Positions 1-42,254 of a stretch of DNA of 45,800 bases are shown here, in pieces. This DNA is from an uncultured Roseburia sp. (GTDB taxonomy: Bacteria > Bacillota > Clostridia > Lachnospirales > Lachnospiraceae): contig CALZGM010000026.1 in assembly GCA_945787015.1 (NCBI GenBank), positions 1 to 45,800 on the forward strand. The letters are read 5' to 3'. Within the stretch, counting starts at the first letter, position 1, and every line of letters starts with the position of its first letter. Below the pieces are notes generated by a model. It saw only the letters and a program-made list of their open reading frames with translations, searched no databases and was not told the DNA's origin. A program made the position numbers and the translations under genes.

Positions 1-49
1 CTCTTCCTCAATATACGAAACTATAAATTCAAATTTTGGACTAAATATC
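1..49 (-). repeat. Dispersed palindromic repeat, copy A (partial)
   Basis: Read on the minus strand, this begins GATATTTAGTCCAAAATTTG and continues into a GTTTCGTATATTGAGGAAG block. The same sequence, with about four differences over 47 bases, appears at 45699-45747 in the opposite orientation. The shared end GATATTTAG also marks copies at 7679 and 18867. The rest of the copy lies outside the window. Direct observation; its nature as a mobile repeat is inferred. Confidence 0.7.
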
Positions 50-5629: not shown

Positions 5630-5877
5630 AGAAAAAGCGATGACGGAAAAAAGTAGCATAGTAAGGACAGCCAGAGAGAGCATCACTTGGTGGAAGATGC
5701 TTATGTAGATAGTATGTGAAAACCATTCTAGAGCTGCAATGCCGAAAGTAGACGTAAGCGTTGCCGTATATCTGCGTTAAAGGTTAGGATTTGTTGGAAT
5801 CTGAAGTGAAACTTAAGGTGGAACCGTGCAATAGAAGCACCCTTAAAGATACAGTTGTATCTTTGTGGGTGCTTTTT
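5630..5877 (+). promoter_or_regulatory. T-box leader controlling thrS
   Basis: A structured leader with the T-box sequence AAGGTGGAACCGTGC at 5815-5829. It is followed by a terminator hairpin (GCACCC..GGGTGC, 5837-5872) and a T run (5873-5877). Upstream lies a stem I with the AGAGAG and GGTGGAAGATGC elements. The sequence GTGAAAACCATTC places a threonine codon ACC at 5722-5724 in the expected specifier position, which agrees with the downstream gene. Uncharged tRNA-Thr should pair with specifier and T-box and prevent termination. The precise 5' edge is approximate. Confidence 0.92.
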
Positions 5878-5930
5878 CTTATGTTAATCAAAAAATTTGT
5901 ATTGCCGTAAAGGGCAGAATGGAGGAAAAC

Positions 5931-7679
5931 ATGAAGATTAGCATGAAGGATGGTTCCATCCGGGAAGTAACATTTGAAGAAGAACTGGGAAGAAATGCAT
6001 TTCGCCACACAAGTGCGCATATTTTGGCGCAAGCGGTGAAACGTCTATATCCGGGAACAAAATGTGCAATCGGACCGGCGATTGCAGATGGATTCTACTA
6101 TGATTTTGAATTCGATTTCGAGTTCTCTGAAGAGCGATTTAAAGAGATTGAAGCTGAAATGCAAAAAATCGTAAAAGAAAACCTGCAGCTGCGCCACTAC
6201 ACATTAAGCAGAGAAGAAGCAATCAGGCTTATGGAGGAGAAAGGTGAACCATACAAAGTAGAATTGATACGGGAATTACCGGAGGATGAAGTCTTAAGTT
6301 TCTATCAGCAGGGTGAGTATGTAGAGTTTTGTGCAGGACCGCATGTGGCATATACAAGTGCAGTAAAGGCATTCAAGCTATTGTCTGTTGCAGGAGCTTA
6401 TTGGCGAGGGGATGAAAAAAATAAAATGCTGACAAGAATCTATGGAACATCATTCCCAAGCAGGGAACTGCTGGAAGAATATTTAAACCGTATGGAGGAG
6501 GCAAAAAAGAGAGATCATAGAAAGCTTGGAAAAGAACTGGGCTTATTTACAATGATGGAGGAAGGACCGGGATTTCCATTTTTCCTTCCAAAAGGAATGG
6601 TATTAAAAAATCTTCTGATTGATTACTGGCGTAAAATCCATACAAGAGAAGGTTATGTAGAAATCTCTACACCAATGATGCTAAACAGACAGCTTTGGGA
6701 GACATCCGGACATTGGGATCATTATCGAGAAAATATGTATACAACTGTCATTGATGACACAGATTTCGCAATAAAACCAATGAACTGTCCGGGAGGCATG
6801 CTGGTATACAAAATGGAACCGCATTCCTATCGGGATTTACCAATGAGGGTAGGCGAACTGGGCTTGGTACACAGACATGAAAAATCAGGTGCACTGCATG
6901 GATTAATGCGTGTGCGCTGCTTTACGCAGGATGATGCACATATTTTTATGACGAAGGAGCAGATACCGGGAGAAATAAAAGGTGTGATTCGTCTGATTGA
7001 TGAAGTTTATTCCAAATTTGGTTTTAAATATCATGTGGAATTATCTACAAGACCGGAAAACTCTATTGGAAGTGATGAGGATTGGGAAGTTGCAACGAAT
7101 GGTTTAAAGGAGGCACTGGATGCATCCGATCTACCTTATATCATCAACGAGGGTGACGGCGCATTTTATGGACCAAAGATTGATTTCCATTTAGAGGATT
7201 CCATTGGAAGAACATGGCAATGCGGAACGATTCAGTTGGATTTCCAATTACCACAACGCTTTGAAGCAGAATATATCGGAGCAGACGGAGAAAAACACCG
7301 GCCAATTATGATACATCGTGTTGTATTTGGTTCTATCGAACGCTTCATTGGAATTTTGATTGAACATTTTGAAGGCAAGTTCCCATTGTGGCTGGCCCCG
7401 GTGCAGGTGAAAATTTTATCGATTTCAGATAAATTCAATGCTTATGCGCAGGCAGTAAAAGCCGAGCTTGCACTAGAAGGATTCCGGTGTGAAGTAGATG
7501 AACGGGCAGAAAAAATCGGCTACAAAATTAGAAGCGCCAGAATGGAACGAGTACCTTACATGATTGTGGTAGGAGAGAAAGAAGAAATAAGCGGCAACCT
7601 TTCTGTGCGAAGCAGAGAAGAAGGAGATTTAGGAAACATGTCAATGGAGATGTTTGTTGAAAAATTACGGAGGGAATAG
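5931..7679 (+). CDS. thrS: Threonyl-tRNA synthetase lacking most of the TGS domain
   Basis: A 582-residue class II synthetase that charges tRNA-Thr. The editing domain has the HTSAH and CAGPHV metal/catalytic motifs. The catalytic core has MNCPGG, RHEKSGALHGLMRVR (motif 2), DDAH and IHRVVFGSIERF (motif 3 region). An anticodon-binding domain follows (LAPVQVKILSI). Typical bacterial ThrRS is about 640 residues with an N-terminal TGS domain. Here only about 25 residues precede the HTSAH motif, so the TGS is reduced to one strand-like piece (MKISMKDGSIREV). Start ATG 5931 follows GGAGGAAAAC; an upstream in-frame ATG at 5865 lies in the T-box terminator and is rejected. It is regulated by the T-box. 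Confidence 0.95.
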   Translation: MKISMKDGSIREVTFEEELGRNAFRHTSAHILAQAVKRLYPGTKCAIGPAIADGFYYDFEFDFEFSEERFKEIEAEMQKIVKENLQLRHYTLSREEAIRLMEEKGEPYKVELIRELPEDEVLSFYQQGEYVEFCAGPHVAYTSAVKAFKLLSVAGAYWRGDEKNKMLTRIYGTSFPSRELLEEYLNRMEEAKKRDHRKLGKELGLFTMMEEGPGFPFFLPKGMVLKNLLIDYWRKIHTREGYVEISTPMMLNRQLWETSGHWDHYRENMYTTVIDDTDFAIKPMNCPGGMLVYKMEPHSYRDLPMRVGELGLVHRHEKSGALHGLMRVRCFTQDDAHIFMTKEQIPGEIKGVIRLIDEVYSKFGFKYHVELSTRPENSIGSDEDWEVATNGLKEALDASDLPYIINEGDGAFYGPKIDFHLEDSIGRTWQCGTIQLDFQLPQRFEAEYIGADGEKHRPIMIHRVVFGSIERFIGILIEHFEGKFPLWLAPVQVKILSISDKFNAYAQAVKAELALEGFRCEVDERAEKIGYKIRSARMERVPYMIVVGEKEEISGNLSVRSREEGDLGNMSMEMFVEKLRRE

Positions 7680-18866: not shown

Positions 18867-19179
18867 GATATTTAGTGCAGTAATTGTTTTTATAAAAGTG
18901 TATATCAGAGAAAAAGAGATGCTTCCTATTTTCTTTCTTCGGATGTACGCGTGTAAGAAGTTCGATTATCCATATATATAATTTTTCAATTGTTTACGCG
19001 CCGCATCGTAGCGGAGTCCATTCCGCACGATGCTAAAAATGACGTCCTGTCATTTACGCGCTGTGTACTGAAATATGGATAAAGAACTTCTAACACGCTC
19101 CCAAACGAAAAAGAAAATTAGGAAGCATCTCTTTTTCTCTCATTTACACTTTGAAAAACAATTAATGTAGCTAACTACC
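18867..19179. repeat. Long palindromic repeat, copy C
   Basis: This element of 313 bases begins GATATTTAGTGCAG two bases after the spoIVA stop. Its two ends pair imperfectly. The strongest arms are 18907-18936 (AGAGAAAAAGAGATGC..TTT) and 19110-19140, complementary over about 30 bases with one extra base. Inner arms pair AGAAGTTC..ATCCATAT (18951-18975) with ATATGGAT..GAACTTCT (19072-19095). The centre has GCATCGT..ACGATGC and ATGAC-GTCCT-GTCAT stem-loops. CGGATGTACGC (18940-18950) recurs at the window end (copy D). No gene is seen here; the hairpin may also terminate spoIVA transcripts. Confidence 0.85.
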
Positions 19180-37961: not shown

Positions 37962-40673
37962 ATGACTGTATTAACTGCGACACCGGATTTAAAAGCAACC
38001 TTTGATAAATTGATTGAGAATATGAATGTCCAGGTAAATTGGAATGGACTTTTTGTGGTGATTGATAACTGTATGATTTTACAGGGGGAAGTTCGTTCAC
38101 TTTTTTTTCACTTTGAAAGCCGGAAGGTAATGACAAATATCATTGATTTAGAAATCCCTGCTCAGTCTATAGTGATGATTGGAGATAATGGATATATCAA
38201 AAATGTAATCAATATGCTTTTGTATGCTTTTGGAAAATGGGGCAATATTAAGGGGCTAAAGGTAGAGAAGGATGATAACCAGCTAAATCAACTGTTTAAA
38301 AACATTCTTGGCGAAATTGATGTTGAGCCGGATTATACGAGGGAACATTTTTGGTTTTATCAGAAGGGAATGCGCATCGTATATGAAGATGTGGTGCAGT
38401 GTGCCATTGAACATAAAGAAAAGGAACTTGAGGTACCGGAGGAAGAGAGCCAGGGGCTTTGGCATAAGTTAATCTGGAAGCAGACTTATGAAAATTTTGG
38501 CGTTGAAGAAACTACGATAAAAGAACGAAATGAAAACCGTTTAGGCAATAATTTCTATCTGACAAGTTATCTTTGCCCACAGTGTAGTGGGAAGATGCAT
38601 GCAGTGGTTTATCCGATAGGAAAAGAATTTGTAATTGATACCACGGAAGGACAGGTACGGCTGGCAAGAGCTTTTACCTGCCATAATTGCTATCGTTTTT
38701 ATACACCGAGACCAAAACGCCTACTGATTGACGGTGAATGTTATCTTATGGATTTTCTGGGAGATGCGGCAGCCTATGCGGATTATCAGGAGTTGCTTGG
38801 AAAGAATGGAGATAAGGTCAGTAACTATAACTATAATGAGTATGTGAATCAGCGTTTGGAAACTGCGACAGCTACCTCAAAAAGGACTATAGAACCATTA
38901 GAATTACCTGAATTAAAGCGAGTAATAGAGGAACTTCAGAAACTATCTGACCGGGATTTTTCAGAACTTTTTGCACAAATGGAAGAGGGCTTTTATCCGG
39001 AAGAAGTGACAGAACAGGTACAAGGGGCTCTTTGGAAGGAGCAAAAAGTTCGTGAAAATAAGGCACAGAACGAGAAACAAAAGAAACAGAATGGTAAATC
39101 AGTTAACAGTAAAATCGGTTCAGAGGCAACAGAGCAAAAAGAAGTAACAGAGAAAATTGAGAAATATAAAGCCAGATTAAATCTTTTTCCACGTTTGTCA
39201 GAACGCCAGCGTACGGAATTAGTAAAACAGATTACGGTGGATTCTGTGATTTCAGAAAGTGTTCGTAGCGAACTATTGGAATCAGCAAAGTGGCTTCGAA
39301 GACAGGATAATGGTACACGATTAAAGGATAAGATAGAGGGTGCAAGAAATAAGAATCGATTGGTGATGCTTCGAATCTATGGAGAGATTGAAGCCGCCGA
39401 TTTAGAGGAACCGGAACGGGATAAACTCTTTGGAATGACGGGTATTACACGTGATGCATATGAGGAATATCGAAAAGAGAAGGAAGAACCTTTGGCTGCG
39501 AAGGAACAAAAAGCAGTCATGCAAGGAATTGATGGGCGGAAAACATCGGGAGATAAACCGGTAAGTGGTGAAGTCGTCAAGACTTCTTATGTTGAAAAAA
39601 TGGAAAGAAGAGCCAGGGAGGCAACCACACAGGAGAAAACATATATACCGGAGAAAAACGATTCAGCAGATAGAAATGTTGTGCCAGAAAAAGCAACTAT
39701 ACGGGAAAAAACAGCCTCGGGAAAGAACTATTCACAGGAAACGGGAAAGAGAGAAAATACAAGTCCGGCAAAGGATATCCGTATCATAGAAAAACGCTTA
39801 CGTAGTGCCAGAGCGACTGATAGGAATGAATTGCAGAATATATTGGACAGTCTTTTTGCAGGAGAATATGATGCCAAAGAAGCAGCACCATATGTGAAAG
39901 AAGTAAGAGAAAGACTTCAGAAGCTGGATGAGGCTTATTTAGACAGGATTCTTGGAAATATGATGCAAATGTCATCTGAAGAAGGAGAAGAAGCCTATGA
40001 GAGATTAAAGGAAGCAGATATTTTACCGGAATTGAAAGCGGACGCTTTAAAACAACTGGAGCGACGCTTGTCAAAAATAAAATCGGATGAATGTGAATTA
40101 TTGGTTCAGAAGTTAAAGAAAGAAATGGCAGAGGCAGGAATTGGAGAAAATGAGAGGCATCATTTTTATCCGGCGCGCCGTGTTATAATGAAAGAAACCA
40201 CAAAAGAGGAAACGGAAGTAATTGATTTTGCAAAAGCTTCTTACGGTGCTGGAATCGGACCGTTTGAGTATCCTATCTGGCTGGCTGACACTTCACGTAA
40301 TAAGTCCGGTGATAAGGGGATGTTTTTGACGCCGGAGCATATATTTTACAGTAACTTGACGACCTCTTATCATATTTCTGTTTTCAGTATTGATTCTATT
40401 GATGCTTCAACAGGGCTATTGAATAAGGGGCTATATGTTCACCTTAAAAATGGTGAAAGAATAAAACTCCCCTACGTCGTGGAGGTAGCAATGTTGCCAA
40501 AACTGGCAGAGGTATTGGAGTCTTTTGTGAAATATTTGCAGGAAAAGCCGTTCTCCAGAAAGGAAGTATATCTGGCGAAAGAATCCCATGAAGAAATCTG
40601 CTGTTTCCGCTGTGGATTTATCTATAAGGATTTAGAGGCCTGCCCAAAGTGCGGATATAAGGCAAACAGATAA
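37962..40673 (+). CDS. Large zinc-ribbon protein of unknown function (903 residues)
   Basis: I do not recognise this protein. Visible parts: a globular N-terminal region (1-200) with no signal or membrane segment; a zinc-ribbon-like pair C205-x2-C208 and C240-x2-C243; a long, charged, low-complexity and helical middle (about 290-760) with repeats of the type LRSARATDRNELQNILDSLF; a C-terminal domain (about 790-870) with GMFLTPEHIFYSNL and IDASTGLLNKGLYVHLKNGE that reads like a PH-type barrel; and a final zinc ribbon C-x2-C..C-x2-C (CFRCGFIYKDLEACPKCGY). Start ATG 37962 follows GGGAGAG. It is divergent from htpG across the CIRCE site. Confidence 0.8.
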   Translation: MTVLTATPDLKATFDKLIENMNVQVNWNGLFVVIDNCMILQGEVRSLFFHFESRKVMTNIIDLEIPAQSIVMIGDNGYIKNVINMLLYAFGKWGNIKGLKVEKDDNQLNQLFKNILGEIDVEPDYTREHFWFYQKGMRIVYEDVVQCAIEHKEKELEVPEEESQGLWHKLIWKQTYENFGVEETTIKERNENRLGNNFYLTSYLCPQCSGKMHAVVYPIGKEFVIDTTEGQVRLARAFTCHNCYRFYTPRPKRLLIDGECYLMDFLGDAAAYADYQELLGKNGDKVSNYNYNEYVNQRLETATATSKRTIEPLELPELKRVIEELQKLSDRDFSELFAQMEEGFYPEEVTEQVQGALWKEQKVRENKAQNEKQKKQNGKSVNSKIGSEATEQKEVTEKIEKYKARLNLFPRLSERQRTELVKQITVDSVISESVRSELLESAKWLRRQDNGTRLKDKIEGARNKNRLVMLRIYGEIEAADLEEPERDKLFGMTGITRDAYEEYRKEKEEPLAAKEQKAVMQGIDGRKTSGDKPVSGEVVKTSYVEKMERRAREATTQEKTYIPEKNDSADRNVVPEKATIREKTASGKNYSQETGKRENTSPAKDIRIIEKRLRSARATDRNELQNILDSLFAGEYDAKEAAPYVKEVRERLQKLDEAYLDRILGNMMQMSSEEGEEAYERLKEADILPELKADALKQLERRLSKIKSDECELLVQKLKKEMAEAGIGENERHHFYPARRVIMKETTKEETEVIDFAKASYGAGIGPFEYPIWLADTSRNKSGDKGMFLTPEHIFYSNLTTSYHISVFSIDSIDASTGLLNKGLYVHLKNGERIKLPYVVEVAMLPKLAEVLESFVKYLQEKPFSRKEVYLAKESHEEICCFRCGFIYKDLEACPKCGYKANR

Positions 40674-40680
40674 AAAGTAA

Positions 40681-40709
40681 TTGACAATTCGCCTCCAAAG
40701 TGCTATCCT
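40681..40709 (+). promoter_or_regulatory. Sigma-A promoter of the aspartyl-tRNA synthetase leader
   Basis: TTGACA (40681-40686), 17-base spacer, TATCCT (40704-40709). The transcript would start near 40716 and carry a leader of about 240 bases. Confidence 0.75.
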
Positions 40710-40738
40710 TTGAAAAAATTCAAACGGAGGCAGCTGTA

Positions 40739-40789
40739 ATGAATCAGTATCAACATCTTACAATGTTGAATAGGGACGACGATTTATAG
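40739..40789 (+). CDS. Leader peptide, 16 residues, ending in Asp-Asp-Asp-Leu
   Basis: ATG 40739 to TAG 40789 encodes MNQYQHLTMLNRDDDL. A strong CGGAGG ribosome site (40725-40730) is placed eight bases before the ATG. Three consecutive Asp codons (GAC GAC GAT, 40775-40783) stand two codons before the stop, and Asn codons are at positions 2 and 11. The stop codon lies inside the first arm of the RNA switch that follows, and the downstream gene is an Asp-tRNA synthetase. A ribosome-stalling leader peptide is inferred. Confidence 0.7.
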   Translation: MNQYQHLTMLNRDDDL

Positions 40790-40909
40790 CGCTTGTAGCT
40801 GTGAAATAGAATTCATAGGTACAAGCGCTATTTGTGTTGTACCTATGTGGAAGGAATATGAAGAGAGCCACATTGGTAAAGTTTATTTTACTGATGTGGC
40901 TCTCTTTTT
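40786..40909 (+). promoter_or_regulatory. Transcription attenuator with mutually exclusive hairpins
   Basis: Five segments: 1, ATAGCGCTTGTA (40786-40797); 2, CATAGGTACAAGCGCTAT (40814-40831); 3, TTGTACCTATGTGG (40837-40850); 4, AGAGAGCCACATTGGT (40862-40877); 5, ATGTGGCTCTCT (40894-40905) plus a T run. 1 pairs with 2 (12 bp); 2 pairs with 3 (CATAGGTACAA, 11 bp); 3 pairs with 4 (ACCTATGTGG with CCACATTGGT, 9 of 10); 4 pairs with 5 as a 12-bp terminator. Each pairing excludes its neighbour. The leader peptide's stop codon lies in segment 1, so ribosome position decides which set forms. Confidence 0.8.
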
Positions 40910-40955
40910 ATACATTTAAAAACGGCAAAGAAGCCAGAAGAGAGGAAAGAAAATT

Positions 40956-42254
40956 ATGAAAACAGTAGAAGCAAATGAATTGCAAAATCACATCGAAAGT
41001 GAAGTGAAAATCCACGGAAGCATTTACAAAATCCGTAAAATGCACGGCTTTGCGTTTGTGCTGCTAAGAACGAAGCGGAAAGTCGTACAGTGCATCTATT
41101 CTGAGGAACAGGCAAAATTTCCATTAGAAGAATTAGTGGAAGAAAGCTGCGTTATTTTTACAGCGCAGGTAGTGAAGGAACCACGCTCGAAAACCGGTTA
41201 TGAACTGCAGCTGAAGGAAGTGGAAATATTATCAAAGCCGGCAGAAGTATCACCGATTGTCATTAACAATAAGCTGGTAGACACTTCCATTGAAAATCTG
41301 CTTAATTTCAGACCGATTACCCTGCGTAATGAAAAACAGCGTGCAATTTTTAAAATTCAGGAAGGCATAACCTGTGGAATGCGTGAATTTTTGATGCGGG
41401 AAAACTTTACGGAAATTCATACACCGAAGATTGTGTATGCAGGGGCAGAAGGAGGTGCAAATATTTTTAAGCTGGATTATTTTGGGAAGGAAGCATATCT
41501 GGCGCAAAGTCCGCAGTTTTATAAGCAGATGATGGTTGGAGTATTTGAAAGAGTATTTGAGATTGCCCCGGTGTTTCGGGCTGAAAAACATGATACAGCC
41601 AGACATTTGAACGAATACACCGGCGTGGACCTTGAAATGGGTTATATTGAAAGCTTTGAAGAAATTATGGAGATAGAAACAAAAATGCTGCAAAATGTAA
41701 TGCGCTGCCTGAAAGAACGGTATGTGGCAGAACTGGAACTGCTTCAGGTAGAATTGCCGGAGATGGAAACGATACCCAAAATAAAATTTAGGGAAGCAAA
41801 GGAACTCATAGCAAAAGAGTATCATCGCAAAATAAAGGACTATGAAGATTTTGAACCGGAAGAAGAGAAATTTTTGTGTGAACTGATGAAACAAAAAACA
41901 GGAAGTGAATTTGTATTCGTAACACATTATCCAAGCAAAAAACGTCCTTTTTATGCGATGGAATGTGCAGAAAACCCGGATGAAACGGAAAGCTTCGACT
42001 TGTTATTCAGAGGTCTTGAGATTACGACAGGCGGTCAACGGATTCATTCTTATGAGGAACAAGTGAAAAAGATGGAGAAGCGGGGAATGAACGTAGAATT
42101 GTTTGAAAGCTATCTGATGATGCACAAATACGGTATGCCTCCACATGGCGGCTTAGGTCTTGGCCTGGAACGTTTTACGAGTAAGCTTTTAGAGCTGGAA
42201 AATGTACGATTATCTACGCTGTTTCCAAGAGATATACATCGGTTAGTGCCATAA
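40956..42254 (+). CDS. aspS: Archaeal-type aspartyl-tRNA synthetase (AspRS2), possibly non-discriminating
   Basis: A 432-residue class IIb synthetase: OB-fold anticodon domain (1-100, HGSIYKIRKMHGFAFVLLRT), then a catalytic core with YLAQSPQFYKQMMV, motif 2 FRAEKHDTARHLNEYTG, and motif 3 GGLGLGLERF; it ends FPRDIHRLVP. The size (about 430 rather than 590) and the core motifs mark the archaeal/eukaryal-type AspRS, which in bacteria is often a second enzyme forming Asp-tRNA-Asn for amidation. Specificity cannot be settled here; AsnRS is the alternative label. It is preceded by the attenuator and its leader peptide. Confidence 0.88.
   Translation: MKTVEANELQNHIESEVKIHGSIYKIRKMHGFAFVLLRTKRKVVQCIYSEEQAKFPLEELVEESCVIFTAQVVKEPRSKTGYELQLKEVEILSKPAEVSPIVINNKLVDTSIENLLNFRPITLRNEKQRAIFKIQEGITCGMREFLMRENFTEIHTPKIVYAGAEGGANIFKLDYFGKEAYLAQSPQFYKQMMVGVFERVFEIAPVFRAEKHDTARHLNEYTGVDLEMGYIESFEEIMEIETKMLQNVMRCLKERYVAELELLQVELPEMETIPKIKFREAKELIAKEYHRKIKDYEDFEPEEEKFLCELMKQKTGSEFVFVTHYPSKKRPFYAMECAENPDETESFDLLFRGLEITTGGQRIHSYEEQVKKMEKRGMNVELFESYLMMHKYGMPPHGGLGLGLERFTSKLLELENVRLSTLFPRDIHRLVP

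Follow-up and report, generated by a model that had tools for sequence, protein, structure and literature searches.

T-boxes are the expected sensors for the synthetase genes of Firmicutes, and the 45,800-nucleotide stretch of DNA analysed here (the window; contig 26 of the 3.3 Mb genome of an uncultured Roseburia sp.) carries one: as claimed in the initial annotation, a T-box (RF00230, 108 bits; 5631-5847, + strand) lies directly upstream of thrS (5865-7679). What, then, controls the aspartyl-tRNA synthetase (AspRS) gene of the same window, which is preceded by a short leader ORF containing three Asp codons and by a terminator? The evidence set out below indicates that the element at 40681-40955 is very probably a ribosome-mediated transcription attenuator, with charged tRNA(Asp) as the signal sensed and a second, inducible AspRS as its target.

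Every part that the initial annotation had described, i.e. promoter, GGAGG, leader frame, mutually exclusive pairings and terminator ahead of an AspRS gene, was located in the sequence (Table 1). The leader reads ATG AAT CAG TAT CAA CAT CTT ACA ATG TTG AAT AGG GAC GAC GAT TTA TAG, with a single Leu codon separating the Asp codons from the stop. The scan yielded two terminator-like sites, where shuffles lead one to expect 0.6, and the terminator hairpin is one of them. The promoter match alone is no evidence, since three promoter-like sites were seen where shuffles lead one to expect 2.2; a loose TTGAYN-15..19-NANNNT pattern is present upstream in 63 of the 77 parsed loci described below (a raw count, with no shuffled control). 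The downstream gene does encode an AspRS, but not the housekeeping enzyme: its 432-residue product, AspS2, scores 566 bits (cutoff 353) with the archaeal-type model NF003483, 'aspartate--tRNA(Asn) ligase', and a bacterial-type AspS is encoded separately in the genome.

Table 1. Features of the aspS2 leader region and the evidence for each (positions in the window)
Feature	Position	Strand	Basis
Putative promoter, TTGACA-17-TATCCT, extended -10 (TG)	40681-40709	+	promoter scan
Shine-Dalgarno sequence of the leader, GGAGG	40726-40730	+	sequence; 8 nt before the ATG at 40739
Leader ORF, MNQYQHLTMLNRDDDL and stop, 16 codons	40739-40789	+	sequence; relatives keep the end (L)(N/H)RDDD
Asp codons of the leader	40775-40783	+	sequence
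Segment 0, AATAGGGACGACG, pairs with segment 3	40769-40781	+	fold, alignment, tree, duplex energy
Segment 1, ATAGCGCTTGTA, pairs with segment 2	40786-40797	+	alignment, duplex energy
Segment 2, CATAGGTACAAGCGCTAT, partner 1 or 3	40814-40831	+	alignments, duplex energy
Segment 3, TGTTGTACCTATGTGG, partner 0, 2 or 4	40835-40850	+	alignments, ribosome calculation, duplex energy
Segment 4, 5' arm of the terminator, partner 3 (predicted antiterminator) or 5	40860-40881	+	terminator script, ribosome calculation, duplex energy
Segment 5 and U-tract, 3' arm of the intrinsic terminator	40887-40909	+	terminator scan, duplex energy
aspS2, archaeal-type aspartyl-tRNA synthetase, the genome's second AspRS	40956-42254	+	protein model, alignment, genome search

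No family of Rfam 15 exceeds its gathering score at the leader, either in the window or in 20 related loci (16 of the leader type); this score misses real elements, however, since the four loci of the T-box type also fall below it. RF00230 is absent from the 16 matches up to E 5 in 40500-41100, and the weak matches at the terminator (mir-46 and others) were dismissed as generic hairpins. No similarity to the leader DNA was detected in plasmid or phage records at E 1e-5.

To follow the element in related genomes, we used 83 loci: the window, two genus-mates and the best 80 of 552 AspS2 relatives (named records), these 80 being mostly Lachnospiraceae according to the record titles. A leader with Asp codons is present in 78 of the 83 loci, i.e. 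in 78 of the 79 whose sequence covers the place of the leader, a count free of the parsing pattern mentioned below. As to the other five, two lie at a contig end and show no more than the 3' portion of the element (L004 and L070), two are cut off before the leader (L064 and L079, with 250 and 1 bases) and one has a T-box core instead (L083). An RDDD-type leader was parsed in 77 loci, including L073 (Asp-Asn-Asp), which was placed by hand; L045, whose leader has GAT GAT GAT, stands outside these 77. Because the pattern used for parsing requires most of the Asp codons and limits which codon may precede them, codon counts over the 77 parsed loci are partly set by construction. In these loci, the leader peptide has a variable N-terminus and a conserved end, (L)(N/H)RDDD. 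The Asp codons read GAC GAC GAT in 72 of the 77, versus 6.9 expected from the Asp codon use of each gene, which shows that the RNA is constrained beyond the peptide. The initial annotation had proposed looking in related genomes for a conserved leader frame, conserved stems and conserved Asp and Asn codons. Frame and stems are kept, and so are the Asp codons; the Asn codon fares less well, the second position before the first Asp codon being Asn in 58 parsed loci, His in 15 and another residue in 4. The idea of an Asn codon as the conserved sensor was rejected on these counts.

The RNA structure was described initially as a chain of five segments and four pairings. All four pairings are seen, with duplex energies of -17.4 (1:2), -15.4 (2:3), -12.8 (3:4) and -31.6 kcal/mol (4:5), but the segments number six, a pairing between the leader codons and segment 3 having been missed. 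Indeed, the minimum-energy fold pairs the Asn-Arg-Asp-Asp codons at 40770-40780 (AAUAGGGACGACG) with 40836-40846 in segment 3: in this 0:3 duplex (-11.7 kcal/mol), AAU AGG GAC GAC G is paired around hairpin 1:2.

Covariation was assessed in an alignment, A1, of 58 of the 77 parsed loci (19 were left out: nine with an unparsed or irregular segment 3, nine with long hairpin loops and one duplicate of another). The cells paired amount to 94.8% for 2:3, 89.8% for 1:2 and 85.2% for 0:3. For 2:3 and for 0:3, none of 500 shuffles reached the observed value of cells paired, of cells changed on both sides or of the covariation score; for 1:2 the corresponding numbers are 4, 1 and 0, related rows of the alignments not being independent. 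Two other measures weigh little because shuffles often reach them, namely 'pairs changed on both sides' (97, 8 and 26 of 500 for 0:3, 1:2 and 2:3, respectively) and 'further types' (118, 147 and 182). The covariation of 0:3 stems mainly from one variable pair (columns 3/83: UA 30, CG 21, UG 6, other 1), the rest of 0:3 being near-invariant. The variable base is the third base of the codon before AGG; it and its partner in segment 3 combine as T/A in 32, C/G in 23, T/G in 5 and C/A in 1 of the 61 loci, out of 77, that were parsed for this purpose; T and C are synonymous at this position for both Asn and His. On the AspS2 tree, there are 8 changes at the segment 0 site and 11 at the segment 3 site. 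Five branches are common to both, all pair-preserving (hypergeometric P = 4e-5), leaving 3 and 6 changes unshared. An intrinsic terminator was found by script in 66 of the 77 loci, and the variable pair of 3:4, parsed in 47 of these 66, shows compensatory combinations (A/T 26, G/C 16, G/T 5, A/C 0); in one subgroup (e.g. L051) the 3:4 helix is swapped for CCGUGGUCC with GGACCAUGG. The covariation that had been proposed as a check is therefore present: 1:2, 2:3 and 0:3 exceed the shuffles, and 3:4 has its compensatory base combinations. We discarded a hairpin just 5' of segment 0 that had seemed real in the window and its close relatives, since it abuts that segment in 45 of 77 loci versus 32.6 when shuffled.

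We then calculated, for successive ribosome positions, the number of 3:4 pairs to be expected immediately ahead of the synthesis of segment 5, after removal of all RNA on the 5' side of the ribosome edge. In line with the approximate footprint assumed for a ribosome, the first free base was set 13 nt past the first base of the A-site codon. The calculation covers 60 of the 66 loci with a script-found terminator; in the other six (L014, L019, L021, L050, L053 and L068), the hairpin picked is not the one starting in segment 4. The mean number of 3:4 pairs is 2.8 without a ribosome, 10.1, 8.6 and 6.3 with the ribosome at the first, second and third Asp codon, and 2.5 with the ribosome at the stop; at least five such pairs are expected in 14, 57, 49, 36 and 9 of the 60 loci, respectively. 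The corresponding values for the window are 3.2, then 9.8, 9.7 and 9.6, and finally 0.7. Judged from the calculated means, an untranslated or fully translated leader would mostly lead to termination and a stall at the Asp codons to read-through; the prediction of an antiterminator fails at the first Asp codon in 3 of the 60 loci. When the ribosome edge is slid along the leader, the mean climbs from 4.3 to 9.0 as the A site moves from 25 to 14 nt before the first Asp codon; it then stays near 10, drops past the second Asp codon and rises again about 24 nt past the first Asp codon. The ON state would thus reopen from 24 nt past the first Asp codon onwards, where segment 2 becomes covered.

The direction of control put forward initially, i.e. 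read-through upon a stall at the first Asp codon and termination once the stop is reached, is supported by the calculation together with the conservation and the covariation. The reservation that a stall at the last Asp codon could act in the opposite way would apply to part of the loci: 36 of 60 are predicted to keep the antiterminator in this case, the window included. Note that the calculation describes an equilibrium on truncated RNA and ignores kinetics. Read-through must depend on kinetics, since the antiterminator is far weaker than the terminator (see the duplex energies above); known attenuators likewise have a terminator much stronger than the antiterminator.

The conservation, the covariation and the ribosome-position calculation over the 60 loci support an attenuator that would work as follows, with the segments in the order 0-1-2-3-4-5. 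With no ribosome on the leader, 0:3 would form around 1:2 and leave segment 4 to segment 5, resulting in termination; because segment 0 pairs with segment 3, the prediction for a leader without translation is termination in 46 of the 60 loci. A ribosome finishing the leader would cover segments 0 and 1, so that 2:3 forms and 4:5 terminates. A ribosome waiting at the first or second Asp codon would cover segment 0 and not segment 1: 1:2 would form, and the free segment 3 would pair with segment 4 (CCUAUGUGG with CCACAUUGG), allowing transcription into aspS2. Halting the ribosome up to roughly four codons further upstream likewise gives read-through in the calculation. Four features of attenuators of the trp/his type are found here: a short leader ORF with a ribosome-binding site, exclusive pairings ending in an intrinsic terminator, tandem cognate codons (three Asp codons before an AspRS gene, with exceptions in the genome G109 and the genus g362, see below) and, according to the calculation, a placement of these codons by which stalling promotes the antiterminator (first Asp codon, 57 of 60 loci; stop, 9 of 60). 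We infer that the leader is translated, that the ribosome footprint and the kinetics are as the scheme implies, and that the element responds to a shortage of Asp-tRNA.

Which genes lie behind this scaffold was examined in two genome surveys. In the family, the model matched 28 of 397 genomes: 20 matches precede AspS2-type genes, two an additional bacterial-type AspS (G311 and G393) and one the probable MTA/SAH nucleosidase gene mtnN (G109; L132 and L144; named by eye from the protein), while five weak matches (G067, G088, G165, G209 and G398) amount to bare hairpins and were left out of the leader count. In the leader of G109, Asn-Asn-Asn (AAC AAT AAT) replaces Asp-Asp-Asp and the 0:3 pairing is largely kept. 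The aspS2 gene behind the intact leader of G225 (L115) looks split by a frameshift (two tblastn pieces), which could reflect either an assembly error or decay. In the class, 6 of 391 genomes matched: that of the window, G088 with its bare hairpin, G489, which has an AspS2 with an Arg-Asp-Asp-Asp leader, and three species of the genus g362 (L148-L150). In the latter, the leader (...KLNNGYNI) contains no Asp codons and is followed by a T-box and an additional AspS; the scaffold may be either a re-coded sensor or a relic. The two g362 enzymes compared are 85% identical, over about 350 residues, to the T-box-controlled AspS of G409. The latter genome has a leader-controlled AspS2 and, on its contig 15 (L147), this additional AspS, which is of the bacterial type and lies behind a T-box (RF00230, 83 bits).

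We also looked for the other synthetases in 29 scaffold genomes (13, 12 and 4). A separate bacterial-type AspS exceeds the family cutoff in 28 of them; none was found in G091 (86% complete), and G106 contains part of the gene only. The gene behind the scaffold encodes an AspRS in 28 of the 29, G109 being the exception. These two counts together give a second AspRS in 27 of the 29 genomes. AsnRS is present in 24 of 25 leader genomes and in all four genomes of another scaffold set.

The alternative that survives best, unlikely as it is, holds that the element senses slow translation in general, or Arg together with Asp, and is not specific for Asp. The predicted ON window is indeed wider than the Asp codons: in the calculation, the antiterminator results from a stall anywhere between the second Asp codon and a point some four codons ahead of the first. 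Asp is not the sole conserved codon in this interval either, since the adjoining Arg codon is kept in 73 of the 77 parsed loci (72 AGG, 1 AGA). However, the two codons further upstream vary (mostly Lys 28, Gln 11 and Met 8 at -4, and Leu 52, Met 7 and Glu 6 at -3), and Arg gives way to Gly or Lys in four loci that keep Asp (among rows selected by the Asp pattern). Moreover, the conservation of AGG is accounted for by its pairing with segment 3, and the controlled genes are AspRS genes of two types.

Sensing of Asn, or of Asp and Asn together, comes next, and we consider it improbable. This explanation supposes that the enzyme is non-discriminating and makes Asp-tRNA(Asn). It draws on the NCBIfam name of the enzyme family, on the position of the Asn codon, at which a stall falls inside the predicted ON window, and on the Asn codons of the two outlying scaffolds. 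Against it, Asn is replaced by His or another residue in 19 of 77 loci while Asp is kept (again in rows chosen by the Asp pattern), and the near-general presence of AsnRS in the leader genomes (see above) speaks in the same direction. The enzymes themselves also argue against it. As a specificity signature, we used two alignment columns, those of W26 and K85 in the Thermococcus enzyme, which we take to decide the tRNA specificity of archaeal-type AspRS, H/P being presumably non-discriminating. Among 81 readable leader-class enzymes, the K85 column holds K or R in 76 and P in none; the window enzyme has Y and K in the two columns, not H and P. By contrast, the 27 paralogues in the genus and the enzyme of L083 all have H and P, as does the non-discriminating Deinococcus enzyme.

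Less probable again is a structured RNA whose ligand would be a protein (AspRS itself) or a small molecule, the reading frame being a by-product of the conserved RNA. The near-invariance of GGGACGACGAU at the nucleotide level is in keeping with this possibility, but the 0:3 pairing explains most of the constraint, save that on the last two bases of the third Asp codon. The frame itself has features of a coding sequence: in 63 of the 77 loci, a script detected a Shine-Dalgarno sequence and an ATG followed by a frame that stays open into the Asp codons, with variable peptides (the zeros obtained in the other frames are not a fair control, as the motif holds off-frame stops). Furthermore, four of the five departures from GAC GAC GAT are synonymous, the fifth changing the second Asp to Asn (L073), although the pattern admitted few others, and the leader stop begins at six different distances, from 9 to 36 nt past the start of the first Asp codon. 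Finally, chance hairpins before an ordinary gene, in favour of which nothing was found, can be dismissed in view of the stability of the fold (40700-40930, z = -12.2, 0 of 200 shuffles as stable) and of the conservation and covariation in dozens of loci.

With an attenuator responding to tRNA(Asp) as the preferred reading, the control of the paralogues deserves attention. Of the 27 genus paralogues, 26 have upstream a T-box core pattern, which is absent at the window leader. In one of these T-boxes, the loop of stem I, GGAACAC, fits an AAC (Asn) specifier and contains no Asp codon, as judged by eye. The presence of the leader also follows the AspS2 score: all 18 scored family genomes with an AspS2 of at least 570 bits have it, and the next three by score (G381, G180 and G094) have a T-box core and H/P, a few top candidates having been scored in each genome. 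Judging by their sequences, paralogues within a single enzyme family thus appear to use two kinds of sensor, an Asp leader and an Asn T-box.

In many relatives, a second mini-ORF lies between the terminator and aspS2 (L010-L082, e.g. L024): it was found in 51 of the 83 loci with one pattern and in 62 with a looser one, and it is absent from the window. It is preceded by a long Shine-Dalgarno stretch, typically AAGGNNGTGATC, and its codons read M-x-H-x-D-D/Y-V/A-x-x-D. Asp occupies positions 5 and 10 in 51 of 51 cases and is encoded by GAC as well as by GAT, although the search pattern itself partly dictates position 5. The mini-ORF occurs once per genome and only beside aspS2, in 13 of 25 genomes, and a control with the reversed pattern gave zero. 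These observations allow a broader and tentative proposal, which we regard as possible without favouring it: a re-codable attenuator family of Lachnospiraceae and their neighbours would share the control of duplicate AspRS genes with T-boxes, the two being sorted by tRNA, and in most relatives the Asp-rich mini-ORF would add a second sensing step. In this proposal, Asp codons would go with tRNA(Asp)-specific enzymes, and Asn sensors (the T-boxes and possibly the g362 scaffold) with enzymes for tRNA(Asn).

The logic of the element resembles that of the his attenuator of enteric bacteria (segments A-F), in which a stall gives B:C and D:E, completed translation gives C:D and E:F, and the absence of translation leads to termination. 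Common to both are regulatory codons within the 5' segment, alternative chains of pairings and six segments. The differences are that the first segment pairs here with the fourth, around 1:2, and in his with the second, and that his concerns His and a biosynthetic operon whereas the present element concerns Asp and a synthetase gene in a Firmicute. Control of a synthetase by a leader peptide is known from the pheST attenuator of Escherichia coli, which concerns Phe and a housekeeping enzyme; here, it is Asp and a second AspRS. The T-boxes of the paralogous AspS2 genes have in common with the leader the gene family, the bacterial family and a synthetase made when the tRNA is uncharged, and differ from it by binding the tRNA directly.

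Leader-peptide attenuators before synthetase genes in Firmicutes were called new in 2010 (PMC2965389). In the bacilli described there, a His leader peptide precedes hisS* and hisZ and, as here, replaces the T-box of a duplicated synthetase; the case differs from ours in amino acid, gene and lineage, and section 10 of that article describes no alternative pairings. The uORFC-8-2 motif before cysS of Rhodobacterales, as described in PMC8632094, also has tandem cognate codons before a synthetase gene (Cys codons in a uORF, with attenuation proposed), in Alphaproteobacteria. For aspS of Shewanella, PMC2659441 lists a predicted upstream element, complete with terminator, under the name 'tRNA synthetase leader'; this description, which concerns Gammaproteobacteria and names neither a leader peptide nor Asp codons, is the nearest case found in the articles consulted. 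The same article describes, for Shewanella leuA, an anti-antiterminator stem formed by the leader-coding sequence, which is the principle of segment 0; codons serving as a switching strand are therefore not new. In Clostridium acetobutylicum, a T-box is reported on one of three aspS genes (PMC2494555). The searches of the open literature yielded no Asp leader peptide before an AspRS gene, and none was found by term look-up in the main texts of the articles cited here and of PMC8040213, PMC11109978, PMC6429828 and PMC2864571.

A second AspRS has been called rare in bacteria (PMC4206432); the Asp leader is kept across many genera before just such a gene, in genomes that also have a bacterial-type AspS and AsnRS. 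Why a spare, apparently inducible AspRS is retained, for instance against AspRS inhibition or a shortage of Asp-tRNA, thereby becomes a testable question, and the paralogues, with their different specificity signatures under different kinds of sensor, constitute a natural experiment. As to the surroundings of the element, an ORF of 903 residues just upstream (37962-40673, + strand) has no Pfam or NCBIfam match at E 0.001 and contains zinc-ribbon-like Cys pairs in its first third and at its C-terminus. Elsewhere in the window, a TwoAYGGAY RNA motif (RF01731) lies at 18942-19105 on the - strand, with 94 bits for a gathering score of 43.
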